Source of the DNA: Pseudomonadota bacterium
Lineage (GTDB): Bacteria; Desulfobacterota; Desulfobulbia; Desulfobulbales; Desulfurivibrionaceae
Direction of reading: 5' to 3'
NCBI GenBank assembly: GCA_018830485.1
Contig: JAHJRQ010000015.1
Coordinates: 124,001 to 188,000 of the forward strand
Length of the DNA: 64,000 bases
The translations under genes and the position numbers were made by a program. The notes below the pieces were generated by a model. The model searched no databases. It was not told the DNA's origin and saw nothing but the letters and a program-made list of their open reading frames with translations. Position 1 is the first letter of the stretch, and every line of letters starts with the position of its first letter. Positions 13,940-34,514 of this stretch are shown piece by piece.

Positions 13940-15571
13940 ATGTTTTGCAACCAATGTGAACAGACCGCCAAGGGAACCGGATGCACCGTCATGGGTGTCT
14001 GTGGAAAAAACGAAGCAGTGGCCGGACTGGAAGACCTGCTGACCCATGCTGTCCAAGGCTTGTGCCTCGTAGCCGCCGCCGGCCTCAAGGTCGGCGTAGT
14101 TGACCGCGGTGTTGACCGCTTCACCTGCGAGGCGATTTTTTCCTGCCTCACCAATGTGGATTTCGACCCCGGCCGCTTTGAAACCCTGATCCGCAAGACC
14201 GTCGAACTCCGCGAGGCCTTGAAGAAAAAGGTTCTGGCTGCAGGCGGCAAGATCGAGTCCACCGCCCCGGCCGCCACCTTCAGCCCGGCCGACACCCTGG
14301 CCGGCCTGGAAGCGCAGGGCGCGGCCCTGAACTTCATCAATACCCTGGACGCCAATCCGGACCTGCAATCCTTGAAGCAGATCACCATGTACGGTCTGCG
14401 CGGCTTGGCAGCCTACACCGACCACGCCGCCATCCTCGGCAAGGAAGACGAAACGGTCTATGCCTACATCCATGAGGCCATGGGCGAGCTGACCCGCAAG
14501 GATCTGGGGCTTGACCAACTGGTGGGCCTGGCTCTCAAATGCGGCGAGGTGAACCTCAAGGCCATGGAGCTGCTAGATGCCGGCAACACCGGCACTTACG
14601 GCCATCCGGTCCCGACCCCGGTGCCGCTGGGGCATATCCCCGGCAAGTGCATCCTGGTCACCGGCCATGACCTCAAGGACCTGGCCATGCTCCTTGAGCA
14701 GACCAAGGGCAAGGGGATCAACATCTACACCCATGGCGAGATGCTTCCCTGCCACGGCTATCCCGAGCTGAAAAAATACCCCCATTTTTACGGGCATTTC
14801 GGCACCGCCTGGCAGAACCAGCAGAAGGAGATGCCGCAATTTCCCGGGGCCATCCTCTTTACCACCAACTGCATCCAGAAGCCCAGCGATGCTTACAAGG
14901 ACAACGTCTTCACCACCGGCCTGGTCGGCTGGCCCGATGTGACGCACATCGGCGAAAACAAGGACTTCAGCCCGGTCATCAACCGCGCCCTGGCCCTGCC
15001 CGGCTTCACCGATACCGTGGACAACGGCTCGGTCCTGGTGGGCTTTGCCCGGAACACCGTTTTGGGAGTGGCGGACAAGGTCATCGCCGCGGTCAAGTCC
15101 AAGGCCATCCGCCACTTCTTTTTGGTGGGCGGCTGCGACGGCGCCAAGCCCGGCCGCAACTACTACACCGAACTTGTGGAGCAGATCCCGACGGACTGCA
15201 TGGTGCTGACCCTGGCCTGCGGCAAGTTCCGTTTCTTTGACAAGAAACTGGGCGATATCGTCGGCATCCCGCGCCTGCTTGATGTGGGGCAGTGCAACGA
15301 TGCCTACTCGGCCATCCAGATCGCCGTGGCCCTTGCCGGCGCCTTCGAGTGCGGGGTCAACGACCTGCCGCTCTCCCTGGTGCTTTCCTGGTACGAGCAG
15401 AAGGCGGTGGTCATCCTCCTGACCCTGCTGAGCTTGGGAATCAAGGACATCCGGCTCGGACCCTCCCTGCCCGCCTTCATCACCCCCAACGTGCTGGATG
15501 TGCTGGTAAAGAATTTCGCCATCAAGCCGGTCACCACCCCGGCCGAGGATCTCAAAGCCATTCTCGGATAA
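13940..15571 (+). CDS. hcp: Hybrid cluster protein (hydroxylamine reductase / NO-detoxifying)
   Basis: Fe-S protein with a cubane and a hybrid Fe-S-O cluster, linked to hydroxylamine reduction, NO reduction and protein S-nitrosylation. The N-terminal cluster motif is C3-x2-C6-x8-C15-x5-C21 (MFCNQCEQTAKGTGC onward), the form seen in anaerobe Hcp. Hybrid-cluster ligand regions are visible: ITHGEMLPCHGYPEL-like IYTHGEMLPCHGYP, FTTNCIQKP, VGGCDGAKPGRNYY, LACGKFRF and VGQCNDAYSA. 543 residues, normal. First gene of a three-gene set with an HD protein and a ferredoxin. Confidence 0.97.
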   Translation: MFCNQCEQTAKGTGCTVMGVCGKNEAVAGLEDLLTHAVQGLCLVAAAGLKVGVVDRGVDRFTCEAIFSCLTNVDFDPGRFETLIRKTVELREALKKKVLAAGGKIESTAPAATFSPADTLAGLEAQGAALNFINTLDANPDLQSLKQITMYGLRGLAAYTDHAAILGKEDETVYAYIHEAMGELTRKDLGLDQLVGLALKCGEVNLKAMELLDAGNTGTYGHPVPTPVPLGHIPGKCILVTGHDLKDLAMLLEQTKGKGINIYTHGEMLPCHGYPELKKYPHFYGHFGTAWQNQQKEMPQFPGAILFTTNCIQKPSDAYKDNVFTTGLVGWPDVTHIGENKDFSPVINRALALPGFTDTVDNGSVLVGFARNTVLGVADKVIAAVKSKAIRHFFLVGGCDGAKPGRNYYTELVEQIPTDCMVLTLACGKFRFFDKKLGDIVGIPRLLDVGQCNDAYSAIQIAVALAGAFECGVNDLPLSLVLSWYEQKAVVILLTLLSLGIKDIRLGPSLPAFITPNVLDVLVKNFAIKPVTTPAEDLKAILG

Positions 15572-23855: not shown

Positions 23856-25736
23856 ATGCCACACTCCACGCAATACGACGTCATCGTCATCGGCGCGGGC
23901 CATGCCGGCTGCGAAGCCGCTCTGGCCTGTGCCCGCATGGGCTGCCGCACCGCAGTGCTGGTGGTCAACGTTGACACCATCGGGGCCATGAGCTGCAACC
24001 CGGCCATCGGCGGCTTGGCCAAGGGGCATCTGGTCAAGGAGATCGACGCCCTCGGCGGCGAGATGGCGAAAAACATCGACGCCACCGGCATCCAATTCCG
24101 CCGCCTCAACACGCGCAAAGGCCCGGCGGTCTGGTCCTCCAGGGCCCAGGCCGACCGCCTCCTCTACCGGCTGCGGATGAAATCGGTGCTGGAGCAGCAG
24201 GAAAACCTCCACATCAAACAAACCACCGCCGACCGGCTGCTCATCAAAAACGGAGCACTCGGTGGGGTGGTTACTTCCCTGGATGAAGAAATCACCGCCC
24301 GCGCAGTGGTCATCGCCACCGGCACCTTCCTCAATGGCCTGATCCACATCGGCCTGAAGAATTTCCCGGCCGGCCGCATGGGCGACGTGCCCTCGCTGAA
24401 GCTGCCCCTGCACCTCAAGGAGCTGGGCTTTGCCATGGGCAGGATGAAGACCGGCACCACCCCGCGCCTGGACGGAACCACCATCGATTACTCCGAACTC
24501 GAAGCCCAGCACAGCGACGAGCCGCCCAATCTTTTTTCCTTTTCCAACCGGGGCAAGCAGTCGGTGCTGCCCCAGCGCCCCTGCCACATCACCTACACCA
24601 ACCCCACCACCCACGCGATCATCCGGGCGGGCACCGACCGCTCTCCCATGTACACCGGGATAATCGAAGGGGTGGGCGCCCGCTATTGCCCGTCGGTGGA
24701 AGACAAGGTCATGCGCTTTCCGGAAAAGGAACGCCACCAGATCTTTCTTGAACCCGAAGGGCTGGAGACGGTGGAGATCTACCCCAACGGCTTGCCCACC
24801 AGCCTGCCCATGGATGTGCAGACCGCCATGCTCCGCAGCATCAAGGGGTTGGAGAATGTCGCCATCATCCGGCCCGGCTATGCCATTGAATACGATTATG
24901 TCGATCCGCTGGAGCTGCACCCCTCCTTGGAGACAAAACGGCTGAATGGCCTCTTTCTGGCCGGGCAGATCAACGGCACCTCCGGCTACGAGGAGGCTGC
25001 GGCCCAAGGGCTGATCGCCGGAATCAACGCGGTGAAATACGTGCGGGAAGAGGAACCGTTGATCCTGGACCGCTCCCAGGCCTACACCGGGGTGCTCATC
25101 GACGATCTGGTCACCCGGGGCACCAAGGAGCCGTACCGGCTCTTCACCTCCAGGGCCGAATACCGGCTGCTGCTGCGGGAAGACAACGCGGACCTGCGAT
25201 TGGGCGAGATCGGCCGGGATCTGGGTTTGGTGCAAGACGACACCTACCGCTTGTTTCAGGCCAAGAAACAGGCCATCGAGGAATCCCTGGCCCTGTTCAA
25301 CACCACCCAGATCCGGCCCAAGCAGGAAATCAACAACCGCTTGCTGGCCATGGGCAGCGCCACCCTCAAAACCGCGGTGAGCGCGGCCGACCTTTTGCGT
25401 CGGCCGGAGATGGATCTTGCCTCCGTGGCCCGGCTCACCGGCCTCACCCTGCCGCGCCCCGAGGAAGAGGTGACCCGGGAGGTCGAGCTGGCCATCAAAT
25501 ACCACGGCTACATCGAGCGGCAGAGCGAGCAGGTGGACCGTTTCCGCCGCATGGAATCGGTGCTCCTGCCCGAGGATCTTCCCTACCGGACCATGGCCGG
25601 CCTTTCCCGGGAGGTGGTGGAGAAACTTTCCAAGATCCAGCCCCGGACCCTGGGCCAGGCGGCGCGGATCTCCGGGATCACCCCGGCCGCCATCTCCATC
25701 CTCCAGGTGCATCTTAAAAAGGAGAATCTCATTTGA
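23856..25736 (+). CDS. mnmG: tRNA uridine-5-carboxymethylaminomethyl modification enzyme MnmG (GidA)
   Basis: FAD and NADH-dependent enzyme that, with MnmE, adds a carboxymethylaminomethyl group to wobble uridine 34. Motifs: FAD site [64 protein letters not shown] and the C-terminal [31 protein letters not shown] (written here in parts). 626 residues, normal. Its stop overlaps the TTG start of the next gene. Confidence 0.97.
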
Positions 25737-27415
25737 AGAGGATTGACGCATGGCTCAGGCAGCTCGGCGAGGCCATGAAATTCAGTCTCAGCTTCAAATT
25801 CATCACCGGCTGCAGCATTACCCTGCTGGTCACCCTCGGCGCCACCTTCTATGTGTTCAACGAGCGCCAGGAGCAACTCATCGTCCGCCAGGCGGAGAAT
25901 GAAGCCCGCGCGGTTTTCCGGCAGATCGTCCTGATGCGCCGTTGGATAGCCGACCACGGCGGGATCTTTGTGGAAAGGCTGCCGCGCTCCCAGCCCTCCC
26001 CCTATCTTTCCGAGCCCGAGATTCGCGATCGCGAGGGGCGGCATTACACCAAAGAAACCCCGGCCATGGTCACCAAGGAGCTGGCCAAGTACTCCCGGGA
26101 AGAGGGGTTGTTCTGGTTCCACATCACCAGCCTCAAACTGACCAATCCGGAAAATGTGCCAGACCCCTTCGAGCGGAAGGCCCTGCTGGCCTTCGAGCAG
26201 AAAAATCTCCGGGAATTCACCGCCATCGAAGACATCGACCGCCAGCCTTACCTCCGCTACATCTCCCCCCTCTATGTCGAGGAAGCCTGCCTGAAATGCC
26301 ACCGGGAACAGGGGTACAAGGTGGGCGATGTCCGCGGCGCCATCAGCGTTGCCCTGCCCATGGACAAGACCTTTACCGAAGCGAGGCAGAACCGGCGGCG
26401 GATGTTCGCCTCCATGCTCCTGGTGGTGGGGGCCCTGAGCGGAGCGATGATCTTCATGATGCGGCATCTGGTGCTGCATCCTATGAAGCGGCTCTCCACC
26501 TCCATCCGGGAATTTTCCCGGGGCAATTACGAGGCGGGAGATATCCTGCGAACCGGGGATGAATTCGAGGATCTCTCCCGCGCCTTTGCCGACATGACCG
26601 CCCAGCTCACCGGATACCACGGCGATCTCCAGGATCGCATCCGGGAGGCGACCAAGGATCTTGCCGAATCCAACCGGAAGCTTCTGGAGACCAACCGGCT
26701 GCTCAACGCGGCCAGCGAACGCAAGTCGGACTTCATCGCCCGCGCCTCCCACGAACTGCGCACCCCCTTGACCTCCATCAAGGGCTCCATGGAATACGTC
26801 ACCGCCAAGCTGGCCTGCCTTCCTCCCCAGGAGGCGGGCAACTGCCCGCAAAATGAACTCTGCGATTTTTTCCAGCTCATCAACAAAAACACCAATCGCC
26901 TCATCCGGTTGGTCAACACCATGCTCGATATCGAGCGGATCGAGATGGGCGACACCACGGCCCTGCATAGCGGTGCATTTGATCTGACGCAGGTGATCCG
27001 CGAAACAATCACCGGCCTTGCCTGCCTTGCCGACGAAAAGGGAATCCGGCTCGCCGCCCTGCTGCCGGAGACCATGCCCCTGCGGGCAGACGAGGACAAG
27101 ATCAGGCAGGTGCTCACCAATCTGCTGGCCAATGCGATCAAGTTCACCCCCGAACAGTCAACCGTCACCATCCGCGGGTTCCAGGAAGAGGGCTTCGCCG
27201 TGGTCGAGGTCCAGGACCAGGGGCCTGGCATTGCCAAAGCAGAGCGGGAAAAGGTTTTTGACAAGTTCTACAAATTGGGCAATAAAGAGGGAAGCGGCCT
27301 GGGGCTCACCATCTGCCGGAGTATCATCACGGCCCACGGCGGGGTCATCGGCGTGGCGGACAGCCAAGGGCCGGGAGCCCGCCTCTATTTCTGGCTGCCC
27401 GCCGGGGAGGAATGA
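25733..27415 (+). CDS. Membrane histidine kinase with Tll0287-like c-haem sensor domain
   Basis: 560 residues. Layout: transmembrane helix about 20-42, an extracytoplasmic Tll0287-like (DUF3365) sensor domain about 45-215 carrying the haem motif C186-LKC-H190, a second helix about 225-245, HAMP, a HisKA domain with [20 protein letters not shown] (phosphorylated His near 340) and an HATPase with [11 protein letters not shown] and [12 protein letters not shown]. The haem suggests a redox or NO sensor. The start is TTG at 25733, chosen because AAGGAG lies 9 bases upstream and it overlaps the mnmG stop; an internal ATG at 25775 is an alternative. It is coupled by ATGA to its response regulator. 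Confidence 0.85.
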
Positions 27416-28116
27416 TGGAGACCAGAGCAGTTACTGCAACATTGCTGGCCATCGACGATGACCAGGACATCCTCAAGGTCCTCAAGGCGAACCTTGAGCT
27501 GCACGGCTTCAGCCTGCTCACCGCCGATTCCCTGGCCGCGGCCCGGGCCATCCTCGCCGAACGCCAACCCGATCTGGTGCTCCTCGACCTGATGCTGCCC
27601 GACGGCGACGGGCTGGAATTCTGCTGCGCCCTGAAATCGCTGCATCCCTCCCTGCCGGTCATCATGCTGACCGCCAAGGACAAGGTTTCGGACAAGGTCA
27701 TCGGCCTGGAACTGGGGGCGGACGACTACATGGTCAAGCCCTTTGAAACCGGCGAACTTCTCGCGCGCATCCGGGCCAGATTGCGGCCGACAGCACCCCA
27801 GCCCCCTCAACCCACCACCATTACCGCCGGGGATCTTGCCATCGACCTGCGCAATCAGGCGGTAACGGTGCGGGGCACGGTCGTAGCCCTCACCCCCAAG
27901 GAGTTCCAGGTTCTCGCCTGTCTGGTGGAGAATCGCAACAATCTGGTGACCAGGGAGGAGATCCGCCAATGCCTCTGGAGCGACGCCAAACTCTATTCCT
28001 GGAGCCGGGTCATCGACGTGCACATCCAGCACCTTCGCCAGAAGATCGAGGTCAACCCGGCGGAACCGCGCTATATCGTTACGGTGCCGGGGCGGGGGTA
28101 TCGGTTTGAGGAGTAG
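27412..28116 (+). CDS. OmpR/PhoB-family response regulator
   Basis: 234 residues. Receiver domain 1-125 with LLAIDDDQD acidic pocket, phosphoacceptor in LVLLDLMLPDGDGLEF, and KP in DDYMVKPFETGELL. Winged-helix DNA-binding domain 135-234 with LTPKEFQVLACLVENRNNLV, VIDVHIQHLRQKI and YIVTVPGRGYRF. Start ATGATG overlaps the kinase stop, so it is the cognate partner. Targets unknown; the haem-sensor kinase and the convergent nitrite-reductase gene make nitrogen-oxide or redox control a reasonable guess. Confidence 0.93.
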   Translation: MMETRAVTATLLAIDDDQDILKVLKANLELHGFSLLTADSLAAARAILAERQPDLVLLDLMLPDGDGLEFCCALKSLHPSLPVIMLTAKDKVSDKVIGLELGADDYMVKPFETGELLARIRARLRPTAPQPPQPTTITAGDLAIDLRNQAVTVRGTVVALTPKEFQVLACLVENRNNLVTREEIRQCLWSDAKLYSWSRVIDVHIQHLRQKIEVNPAEPRYIVTVPGRGYRFEE

Positions 28117-28295
28117 GGGGATGGAGAGGGTTTAGGCCACGATTGCATCGACAGGAAGTAGTTGCCTGATTTCCTTTCGATTTACTTCCTTCGGCAGGTC
28201 GGGTAGAGCAAAGCGAATCCCGACAGTTCCTTGCCAGCGCCCCAATCACCAGGAGAAATCTCCTGCTTCTCACAACGGTGGCCAATGTGAGGCGG
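28117..28295. other. Gene-free convergent gap with an inverted repeat
   Basis: Between the response regulator and the monohaem cytochrome. It contains AGGAAGTA (28153-28160) and TACTTCCT (28183-28190), a perfect 8-base inverted repeat. A short minus-strand open frame here shows no family features and I do not call it. Confidence 0.5.
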
Positions 28296-28475
28296 TCAAG
28301 CTGTTGGCGAAGCTGCCAACCCGTGTTTTCCGTCAAACCAGGCCTTTTCCTGGTCTCCGTGGCATTCGCCGCATTCCTGGCTCCCCGGAATGGCCGGATG
28401 TTTCCCTGCCTCCGCCAGCACCGCCTGCGGCTGCATCAGCAGGCACAAGCCCATCAAGACGATCAATCGCTTCAT
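28296..28475 (-). CDS. 59-residue secreted monohaem c-type cytochrome
   Basis: Small protein below usual length cutoffs. The translated frame reads MKRLIVLMGLCLLMQPQAVL as signal peptide (cleavage near VLAEA), then PAIPGSQECGECHGDQEKAW containing one haem motif CGECH, a further GKHG, and stop. The mature protein is about 37 residues. A good ribosome binding site (GGAGGG) sits 4 bases before the ATG at 28475. It lies downstream of the octaheme nitrite reductase on the same strand, beyond a terminator. It could be a tiny electron carrier, or the surviving N-terminal piece of a longer multihaem protein, since CxxCH followed by W..GKH is seen at the start of such proteins. Confidence 0.7.
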   Translation of the reverse strand: MKRLIVLMGLCLLMQPQAVLAEAGKHPAIPGSQECGECHGDQEKAWFDGKHGLAASPTA

Positions 28476-28604: not shown

Positions 28605-30275
28605 TTACTTTGCCGCAGCGCTCTTCGGCGCCATGGCCTCGGTGAGAATCCTGATCCCTTCCTGGGACTCATTCATGGACTTGTTCAGCGACTCTTTGGC
28701 CATCTCCGGATTGTGGAAGCCGTCGGAGTTCTCGGCGGTCCAGTACTCCCAGAGGATGTGCGCCTTGAGGTGCTGATCCTGGGCCTTCTTGATGGTCTCT
28801 TCAGCCACCCCGGCGTTTTTCGCCGCCACGATCTTGTCGATCAGGGCGCCCAGCCAGTATTCGGCCTTGCGCATCTTGCCCTTGATATGGGCCTTAATTG
28901 ATTCGATGGCGTATTTGGCCTCCTCCTCGGTCCACTTCGGATGGCACTTCAGACAGGTTTCCTTCAACATCACCTTCGGGGTGACGGCAAAGTGGGAGGT
29001 ATAGACCTTGCCGGACTTGTTCTTCATCTTCGGGGTATGGCAGGAATCACAGCCCACCCCGGCCTTGGCGTGCTTGGAATTATAGTAGGATTCGGTCTCG
29101 GGATGCTGCCCCTTCCAGAGCAGCCCGCCGGTGAGGGCATGCTTGAAGTCGAGGAAGTTGATCTTGTTCACATAATGATCGTAGAGGCCGAACACATCCT
29201 TGTACGGGAAGTGGTTGGTCCGCCGGTCGTCCATCTTGACCGGCTTGCCGGTTTTCGGCTCGGTGCCGGGGTTGCAGTTGTACTCCACATGGCACTGGCC
29301 GCACTGCAGTCGTGAGTCGTATTTGTCGAGCAGGGCGATCTTGCGGGTGAAGCCGCGAACGCCCATGTCGATGACCTTGAAGCCGGTCCGTTTCGGATCC
29401 TTGTGCCAGAGGGTGTCGCCGTTGGGCTGGGTCAGGGCGTCGATCAGGCCGTCCCGCACGATGCGCGGTTTGGCCGCATGGGGATCATGGCAGGTAAAAC
29501 AGTTGAGCCCGTGCTCGACGTCCTTTGCCACCTCCACCACATTGGATTCCCTGGACCACTGGGCATCCGGAACCTTGTCGCCCATGTAGGCCCACTTGAG
29601 GATATGGTCCTGGGTTTTGCACTGGAGACAGACCGGATTGGCCGCGGGCGCGGTCTGAGGATTGAAGACCTTCTGTTCCTTGGTCTCGGGATGGGTATCC
29701 ACCAGGACGTCCCAGACCTTGCCCTTTTCAAAGATATAATTCCAGCCGTTCTTGGGTTGGAAGCGGCCGCCGAAGGCGCGATCCACCACGAACTGGTCGG
29801 TGAGCATATGCACATGGCTGCGGGTCAGGTTGTGCTCCTTGGTGAAGCCATGCCCGGCCATCAATTTGTCCCAGAGGGGATTGGGGGAGCGGTTGGTGAG
29901 CTGGGACTTCTCGTCCCGGGCCGGACGGTGCATGGCCTCTTTCATGAAGCTCTCGTACTGGTCCTTGTGGCACTTGCCGCAGGTCTCCCAGGCAGTACTC
30001 GTCACCGGCCTGGTCGCGGGGCCGGGATCGGCAAGATGCCGGGCAAGGCCGCTGTGGCAATTGATGCAGTTCACCTTGCCGTGCTTGCCCATGGTGTGGA
30101 GCTGCTTGACCGGCTCGTGACACTCATAGCAGGTTTCGACCTTGACAGCTTTTTCCGCCGGAGCCTTTGGCGCTGCCCCGCCCGTGCTGGCGGCGTGAGA
30201 CTCGGTGGCGAACATCCCGGCCATGGGCGCCAGGGCAAAAAGGGCCATGACCGTCACAACAGTTTTTTTGGACAT
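28605..30275 (-). CDS. Octaheme cytochrome c nitrite reductase (ammonia-forming, ONR type)
   Basis: Secreted 556-residue protein with a signal peptide (about residues 1-29, ends ESHAA). Eight haem motifs in order: CYECH 49, CINCH 70, CGKCH 99, CLQCK 216, CFTCH 259, CGQCH 325, CDSCH 409, CLKCH 441. The fourth has lysine in place of histidine, the signature of the catalytic haem in NrfA and in the octaheme enzyme of Thioalkalivibrio, where it is also the fourth. CGQCHVEYNC supplies the active-site tyrosine (332) and a cysteine two residues on (334), the pair that forms a thioether bond in that enzyme. QHPETE supplies the catalytic histidine (391). It would reduce nitrite (and possibly sulfite or hydroxylamine) to ammonia in the periplasm. 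A hydroxylamine-oxidase-family label is less fitting because that group lacks CxxCK. Confidence 0.88.
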   Translation of the reverse strand: MSKKTVVTVMALFALAPMAGMFATESHAASTGGAAPKAPAEKAVKVETCYECHEPVKQLHTMGKHGKVNCINCHSGLARHLADPGPATRPVTSTAWETCGKCHKDQYESFMKEAMHRPARDEKSQLTNRSPNPLWDKLMAGHGFTKEHNLTRSHVHMLTDQFVVDRAFGGRFQPKNGWNYIFEKGKVWDVLVDTHPETKEQKVFNPQTAPAANPVCLQCKTQDHILKWAYMGDKVPDAQWSRESNVVEVAKDVEHGLNCFTCHDPHAAKPRIVRDGLIDALTQPNGDTLWHKDPKRTGFKVIDMGVRGFTRKIALLDKYDSRLQCGQCHVEYNCNPGTEPKTGKPVKMDDRRTNHFPYKDVFGLYDHYVNKINFLDFKHALTGGLLWKGQHPETESYYNSKHAKAGVGCDSCHTPKMKNKSGKVYTSHFAVTPKVMLKETCLKCHPKWTEEEAKYAIESIKAHIKGKMRKAEYWLGALIDKIVAAKNAGVAEETIKKAQDQHLKAHILWEYWTAENSDGFHNPEMAKESLNKSMNESQEGIRILTEAMAPKSAAAK

Positions 30276-30516
30276 CTGTTTCCTCCTCCGTTTCTTTGTA
30301 TTTCAGCGAAAAGCCACGGTGCCGGTCTTCCGGCCAGCATGTTCCGTCCCTTGTTTTCCTCTCACATTCAGCATACAGAAAACATCCGTAAATGTGCTGT
30401 TAATGGAAGTAAAGATTCGGTAAATTTTTTGCGGTTCGCGCAGAAATACAAGGCGGTCTCTGCCCGGAAAATGGGGCTGAGAAGAAGAAAATCAGCAACA
30501 AGTGGCGCGGCAGGGA

Positions 30517-31299
30517 TCAGCCGTGGAGGACAAACCGGACAAACAGCAGAAGAATCTCCTGCCGGAAAAAAAGATAGAGCAGGGCAGCGATGGCCAGGAA
30601 CGGCCCGTAGGGGATGACTGTCTTGCCGCCCTTGCGCTGTTTGATCATGGCTCCGACGCCCGCCACCGTGCCCAGCAGCGAGCTGCCGAACACCACAAAG
30701 GGCAGCGCTTGCCAGCCCAGAAAAGCGCCGATCATGGCCAGCAGCTTGATATCGCCCCCGCCCATGCCTTCCCGTTTGGTGAGCAGGTAATAGACCAGGG
30801 CGACCAGATAAAAACTCCCGCCACCGAAGAGAATCCCCAATCCGGCGTCCTGCCAGGCGACGAACGGATTGACAAAGGAGAGGCCAAACCCGAGAACGAT
30901 GCCGGGTAGGCTGATCACATCGGGAATGATCTGATGCTGAAAATCGATGAAAATGACCGCGATCAGGGCGGCGCAAAAAAGAAAATAGATGGGGAAAAGA
31001 ATGGTGGGGCCGAAATGGAGATACAGCGCCAGGGCCATGAGCGCCGTGGCCCCCTCCACCAGGGGGTAGCGCCAGGAGATCCGCACCCCGCACTGCCGGC
31101 ATCTGCCGCGCAGCAGCAGAAAACTCAGCAAAGGGATGTTGTCGTACCAGGCGATGGACTTTTTGCAGACCGGGCAATGGGAGGGGGGGAAAACCACGGA
31201 CCCCCCTTCCTCGGGCAGCCGCACAATGACCACGTTGAGAAAGCTGCCGACCAACGCCCCGAACAGGGCGGCAAAAAAAGAAAGCGTATGCTCAACCAT
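30517..31299 (-). CDS. pilD: Type IV prepilin peptidase PilD
   Basis: Inner-membrane aspartic protease that cleaves prepilin leaders and N-methylates the new N-terminus. Residues 40-75 hold the zinc-binding pair CPVC and CRQC around SIAWYDNIPLLSFLLLRGR, and the two catalytic aspartates lie in FIDFQHQIIPD and GGGDIK. 260 residues with about seven membrane helices. It stands alone, divergent from the gene at 31556; no pilin genes are in view. Confidence 0.96.
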   Translation of the reverse strand: MVEHTLSFFAALFGALVGSFLNVVIVRLPEEGGSVVFPPSHCPVCKKSIAWYDNIPLLSFLLLRGRCRQCGVRISWRYPLVEGATALMALALYLHFGPTILFPIYFLFCAALIAVIFIDFQHQIIPDVISLPGIVLGFGLSFVNPFVAWQDAGLGILFGGGSFYLVALVYYLLTKREGMGGGDIKLLAMIGAFLGWQALPFVVFGSSLLGTVAGVGAMIKQRKGGKTVIPYGPFLAIAALLYLFFRQEILLLFVRFVLHG

Positions 31300-33620: not shown

Positions 33621-34514
33621 ATGGAAGCCGCCCGCAAATGGATTCAGGTGATCGTCGCACTTCTCACCAACGGCTCCTGGTCCTTCCCCTTCACCAAAAC
33701 CCTCTACCAGGGTCCGCTCAAGGTCATCTGCGCGCCCGGCTTGAACTGCTACTCCTGCCCGGCGGCCACCACCTACTGCCCCATGGGCTCGATCCAGCAA
33801 CTGCTGGGCGGGTTGCGCTTCGCCCTGGAAAACGGTCAGTACTATTTCGGCTTTTCAGTGCTCGGCTCCATCGGCGTGCTCGGCGGCTTGCTCGGCAGGA
33901 TGATCTGCGGCTGGGCCTGTCCCTTCGGCTTTATCCAGGAACTGCTGCACAAGATCCCCTCGCGGAAATTCGGGATCCCTCGCTTGCTTTCCCACGGCAA
34001 ATACATATTCCTGCTCCTCTTTGTCGTGGTGCTGCCGCTGGTGCTTGTTGACGAATTCGGCTCCGGCAGCCCCTGGTTCTGCAAGTTCGTCTGCCCGGCC
34101 GGCACCCTGGAAGCCGGCATTCCCATGCTCCTGCTCCAGCCCAATCTGCGCAGCACCCTCGGCCTGCTTTTTCTCAACAAGTTCGTGATCATGCTCCTTT
34201 TTCTTACCTGGGCCGTCTTTTCCAGCCGTCCCTTTTGCCGAACCGCCTGCCCCCTGGGCGCTTTTTACGCGCTCTTCAGCAAGGTCCGCCTGATCAAGCT
34301 GCACCTCGATGAAACCAAATGCACCAATTGCAAAGCCTGCCACCATGTCTGCCCCATGGGGGTCAAATTCAATGAATCCCCCAATGACCCCGAGTGCATC
34401 ACCTGCCTGGCCTGCATGAACAAAGCCTGCCAGTTTGACGCCATCTCCCTGGAAATAGGCGGTATTCCCCTGGCCGTGCCGGACAGGGGACTGTCCCCTG
34501 CCAGTAAACCGTAA
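33621..34514 (+). CDS. NapH-like membrane 4Fe-4S protein
   Basis: 297 residues. About five membrane segments with conserved cysteine pairs at the membrane face (CGWACPFGFIQELLHKIP and CKFVCPAGTLEAGIP, also CRTACPLGAFYALFSK), then two ferredoxin motifs at the C-terminus (CTNCKACHHVCPMGV and CITCLACMNKAC). This is the NapH/RnfB-like quinol-linked electron transfer type. No Nap reductase is in view, so the partner is unknown; the CXXC protein just upstream is the best candidate. Confidence 0.9.
   Translation: MEAARKWIQVIVALLTNGSWSFPFTKTLYQGPLKVICAPGLNCYSCPAATTYCPMGSIQQLLGGLRFALENGQYYFGFSVLGSIGVLGGLLGRMICGWACPFGFIQELLHKIPSRKFGIPRLLSHGKYIFLLLFVVVLPLVLVDEFGSGSPWFCKFVCPAGTLEAGIPMLLLQPNLRSTLGLLFLNKFVIMLLFLTWAVFSSRPFCRTACPLGAFYALFSKVRLIKLHLDETKCTNCKACHHVCPMGVKFNESPNDPECITCLACMNKACQFDAISLEIGGIPLAVPDRGLSPASKP

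Follow-up and report, generated by a model that had tools for sequence, protein, structure and literature searches.

The onr locus and its enzyme

The window analyzed here is a stretch of 64,000 nucleotides lying on a 783-kb contig of a draft genome of 2.9 Mb (26 contigs, 97.9% complete). Its onr gene (28605 to 30275, minus strand) encodes a protein of 556 amino acids that we assign to the octahaem nitrite reductases (ONRs); the coordinates of the original prediction hold (556 codons), and we add the strand, which it had not given. On the 3' side, onr is followed by a truncated remnant of a tetrahaem cytochrome gene (28296 to 28475, minus strand; 59 amino acids, one haem motif). Convergent with both are genes for a sensor histidine kinase (25733 to 27415, plus strand), which combines a periplasmic Tll0287-like (c-haem Cache) domain carrying CLKCH with HAMP, HisKA, and HATPase domains, and for its partner, an OmpR/PhoB-type response regulator (27412 to 28116, plus strand). 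About 110 bp upstream of onr lies a putative operator/promoter element (30388 to 30424, minus strand) of four direct repeats, and on the same flank a gene for a prepilin peptidase (PilD/type IV leader peptidase; 30517 to 31299, minus strand), whose position is conserved in the genus and which is probably functionally unrelated to onr. A hydroxylamine reductase/hybrid-cluster protein gene (13940 to 15571; 803 bits) is found about 13 kb from onr.

ONRs are described as having three CXXCH, one CXXCK, and four CXXCH haem sites with a histidine between sites six and seven (PMC10716430), and an active-site tyrosine, arginine, and cysteine (PMC5433712). We observe this layout, as originally predicted, with CxxCH motifs starting at residues 49, 70, and 99, CxxCK at 216, and CxxCH at 259, 325, 409, and 441; H391 lies between sites six and seven, and Y332, R166, and C334 occupy the active-site positions. 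The sixth motif region reads CGQCHVEYNC, so that Tyr332 and Cys334 directly follow the motif, again as predicted. Judged by eye, a signal peptide appears to occupy the first approximately 25 residues.

In an alignment of 88 sequences (the window protein, 86 locus open reading frames, and TvNiR of Thioalkalivibrio nitratireducens), all haem cysteines and proximal ligand columns are invariant. The window residues Y332, C334, and K220 correspond to TvNiR residues 303, 305, and 188, which bears out the predicted likeness to the Thioalkalivibrio enzyme, and R166 (TvNiR R131), Q390 (360), and H391 (361) are nearly invariant. The Tyr-x-Cys pair is present as predicted but does not serve as a distinguishing mark: it is found in 88 of 88 aligned ONRs, TvNiR included, and thus is a constant of the family and no peculiarity of this gene. 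The eighth haem motif takes the form CX4CH (e.g., CLTSRCH) in about 25 of the 88 sequences (L035, L047, L049, L050, L054, L063, L064, L076 to L079, L082, L084, L086 to L088, L092 to L096, L105, L106, and L108), in which a count of CxxCH motifs would therefore miss one haem; the published definition gives only CXXCH for this site (PMC10716430).

The known ONR structures match the window protein far better than does any pentahaem NrfA, with 547 bits for TvNiR (2ZO5; E value of about 1e-163, residues 42 to 550), 528 bits for TaNiR of Trichlorobacter ammonificans (8RV0), and about 95 bits for the best NrfA structure. Profile HMMs built here, the ONR set leaving out the window protein and its nearest copy, give 1,037 bits for ONR, 96 bits for NrfA, and no match for the PF13447 set. 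The structural and phylogenetic checks proposed with the original prediction were also run. An AlphaFold2 model (mean pLDDT of 86) superposes on TvNiR at 2.0 Å over 521 columns (Foldseek; TM score of 0.93, 48% identity), sharing its fold and exceeding the 40% identity to TvNiR used to delimit ONRs, and superposes on NrfA only at 4 to 6 Å. In a maximum-likelihood tree, the window protein pairs with a 96% identical relative (support, 100/100), adjoining Nitrospirota sequences, within a 34-row ONR clade (95/100); NrfA (100/98) and the phylum's PF13447 proteins each fall into a separate clade. TaNiR and a divergent ONR (L016) fall outside the ONR clade of the window protein, their placement at the base being not resolved.

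Motif layout, catalytic residues, scores, predicted fold, and tree together support the window protein as an octahaem nitrite reductase, a further member of a known family. That it is instead a mislabelled pentahaem NrfA-type or HAO-type enzyme, as its Pfam placement in PF02335 (Cytochrom_C552, the NrfA family; 187 bits) and its NCBIfam matches (NrfA models only, all sub-threshold) could be taken to suggest, is extremely improbable in view of the eight haem motifs, the sixfold higher score of ONR structures over any NrfA, and the separate, supported clades of NrfA and PF13447 proteins. The NCBIfam NrfA scores are 114 bits against a cut-off of 595 and 101 against 692.5. PF13447 is without a match in the protein or its genome, the same profile matching 138 of 247 genomes of the phylum as a positive control, and the HAO assignment, which the original prediction had named as a refuting outcome, was rejected.

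The window protein shares with TvNiR (PDB 2OT4, 2ZO5, and 3F29) the haem layout, the CxxCK haem 4, the Tyr-x-Cys pair, the distal arginine and histidine, and the fold; however, about half of its residues differ, and TvNiR comes from a soda-lake haloalkaliphile and another genomic setting. TaNiR belongs to the same family (CHVEYNC; Foldseek, 1.8 Å and 48% identity), differing in sequence divergence and tree position. Pentahaem NrfA has the catalytic core, the CxxCK haem, and CHV-x-Y in common with the window protein but has five haems, no cysteine after the tyrosine in those examined, and a score under 95 bits.

The onr product would carry out the six-electron reduction of nitrite to ammonium at haem 4, in the periplasm, and probably reduce hydroxylamine and NO as well. 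Lys220 would be the ligand of haem 4; on its distal side, Arg166, His391, and Tyr332, the last probably cross-linked to Cys334, would line the pocket, and electrons would arrive through the seven remaining haems. We infer the catalytic activity, the Tyr-Cys bond, and the electron donor considered below.

A truncated nitrate-ammonification operon

Close relatives (L029 to L033, L081, and the Nitrospirota loci L035, L042, and L047) carry the gene order onr, tetrahaem cytochrome, napA, napD, napG, and napH; on their incomplete contigs only the first part of this order is visible. Their onr genes are 74 to 96% identical to that of the window, and these loci resemble it in gene order and in the kinase/regulator pair, whereas the window has lost napADGH and the greater part of the cytochrome gene. 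Here the cytochrome gene is normal as far as the first haem motif, beyond which unrelated sequence follows. Reading this small open reading frame as a tiny monohaem cytochrome was rejected, since the relatives show it to be a truncated tetrahaem gene; the genome has no other close copy of the tetrahaem cytochrome.

The joint can be placed by comparison with a congener (G194, locus L183), in which gidA, the kinase, the regulator, a REP-like intergenic region, napH, napG, napD, napA, the tetrahaem cytochrome, a nitrite reductase, and pilD follow one another. L183 is collinear with the window on both sides, with flanks 93 to 96% identical. At the deletion junction (28191 to 28328), the REP-like intergenic region (L183 5225 to 5363) is joined to the cytochrome gene (L183 from 10743 on), so that positions of about 5352 and about 10743 of L183 meet and about 5.4 kb is missing. 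The microhomology at the joint is the 8-bp sequence CCGTGTTT (28321 to 28328).

NapA orthologs of at least 79% identity were found in 10 of 17 genomes of the genus by searches with the relatives' NapA, and none was found in the window's genome, whose best proteins reach at most 37%. These 37% identical NapA-like proteins contain an in-frame TGA and are probably selenocysteine formate dehydrogenases. Canonical NapA and NarG models likewise match this genome only far below their cut-offs. A NapH-like ferredoxin (33621 to 34514) was considered as the lost NapH and rejected, since its 63 bits fall short of the 213-bit cut-off. An NrfH/NapC-type quinol dehydrogenase was not found in the genome either.

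We read onr, with a probability of about 0.9, as encoding a periplasmic ONR left over from an operon that once comprised onr, the tetrahaem cytochrome gene, and napADGH. In this reading, about 5.4 kb was deleted, taking napH, napG, napD, and napA as well as the 3' portion of the cytochrome gene, and a nitrite-only module remains from a nitrate-ammonification operon. With the tetrahaem cytochrome cut after a single haem, electrons would have to come from another periplasmic cytochrome. The genome is a draft and REP-like repeats lie close to the junction, so an assembly artefact hiding a full onr-nap operon deserves consideration; yet the joint sits within the 783-kb contig, the identity there spans 8 bp, far below the length needed to mislead an assembler, the flanks match L183 in sequence and order, and the other contigs yielded no napA. 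We regard such an artefact as very unlikely, and grant a slight chance overall to either a NapA in the missing part of the draft or an error at the junction.

Since a nitrate reductase was not found, only the nitrite-to-ammonium step is supported for this genome. The nitrite ammonification originally predicted fits the ONR identity and has to be confined to nitrite, not nitrate; nitrite reduction is supported, and nitrate ammonification is not. This serves as a warning against equating onr with nitrate ammonification. The predicted lifestyle of a sulfur-cycle anaerobe is plausible given the presence of dsrA above its curated cut-off. In Desulfurivibrio, an octahaem ammonifying nitrite reductase is upregulated during nitrate ammonification (PMC12142623); it is likewise a CxxCK octahaem enzyme of a sulfur-cycle Desulfobacterota, but one that possesses a periplasmic nitrate reductase. 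Its ONR apparently represents a different branch from that of the window, if two genomes with 47% identical ONRs (G187 and G189) are Desulfurivibrio, as they seem to be.

Selection on onr has been purifying, as indicated by a dN/dS of 0.067 against L029, the 96% relative, and by 33 synonymous and 8 nonsynonymous codon changes on the window's own branch. The loss of the nap and cytochrome genes may perhaps be too recent for relaxed selection on onr to show.

Between pilD and the tetrahaem cytochrome, G194, G205, and G201 have a pentahaem NrfA, G203 (L029) has NrfA and ONR in tandem, and the window's genome, G204, and G197 have ONR alone. The occurrence of these two distantly related enzymes in one operon slot supports a nitrite-reducing role of ONR equivalent to that of NrfA. 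Why bacteria choose an octahaem over a pentahaem nitrite reductase is called unclear by a recent review (PMC12285233), and a syntenic series with NrfA, ONR, both, or a deleted nap makes this choice testable. In our opinion, the context of the locus deserves the attention of specialists more than the enzyme itself.

A candidate sensor, regulator, and operator

The kinase/regulator pair stands beside gidA throughout the genus, and in Nitrospirota it is located near onr/nap operons. A 2026 preprint attributes properties of NO sensors to such c-haem Cache domains when they are joined to signalling modules (PMC12889525), and the kinase near onr is a probable NO sensor.

The 37-bp element upstream of onr, TTTACNNNNNNTTTACNNNCATTAACANCANNTTTAC, contains four similar TTTAC/TTAAC boxes about 11 bp apart. 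This spacing is usual for OmpR/PhoB-type regulators. The window site has 0 mismatches to the pattern TTTAC-N6-TTTAC-N3-CATTAACA-N-CA-NN-TTTAC (37 bp), and no further site with up to 5 mismatches turned up in the window or in 400 kb sampled from its genome. Across 1.22 Mb of related loci we recovered 40 sites, including a few duplicates from loci fetched twice (L030/L191, L033/L192, and L081/L190), and 0 in shuffled copies. These sites, from two phyla, mostly lie just upstream of onr, nrfA, cytochrome, or nap genes. The operator is common to the window and the onr-napADGH operons; L042, which yielded none, is the exception. Of 75 ONR loci, 10 have a close regulator homolog in the fetched stretch, and 9 of these contain the element; of the 65 others, 16 do (Fisher P = 1.3e-4, an optimistic value as the loci are related).

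From this co-occurrence and placement we infer that the adjacent c-haem-Cache kinase and response regulator control onr via the TTTAC operator. In the fuller model, which we hold at roughly even odds, an NO-sensing c-haem Cache kinase and an OmpR-type regulator binding the four-repeat TTTAC operator would control nitrite ammonification in Desulfobacterota and Nitrospirota, with an interchangeable ONR/NrfA slot and, in the window, a module cut to nitrite only. The literature searched held no description of such an operator/kinase model for ONR, which, with a probable NO-sensing kinase, is concrete and falsifiable.

The same neighborhood leaves room for an ONR that here serves mainly to detoxify nitrite, NO, or hydroxylamine (or to reduce sulfite) and not to respire. 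The loss of nap and the cytochrome partner from the locus, the probable NO sensor next door with its reported sensing properties, and the hydroxylamine reductase/hybrid-cluster gene would fit, as would the additional reduction of hydroxylamine and sulfite by TvNiR (PMC8840924); the region upstream of the hybrid-cluster gene yielded no operator copy. However, the same kinase/regulator and operator are also retained in congeners whose nap is intact, which places the sensor before the loss of nap, and respiration on external nitrite would still be possible. We see a main role in detoxification as a tentative alternative, somewhat less probable than its opposite.

ONR distribution and side observations

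ONR matches are present in only 20 of 258 genomes of the same order, and the nearest named ONR loci come from metagenome bins labelled Deltaproteobacteria, Desulfocapsa, and Desulfobulbaceae. A second ONR lineage, 54 to 55% identical to that of the window, occurs within the same genus (G194, G198, G200, G201, and G202; L015 to L017), which suggests separate acquisitions. Finally, one operator site (L047 4622, 2 mismatches) does not stand before onr or nap; the open reading frames that follow it contain six to seven CxxCH motifs each.
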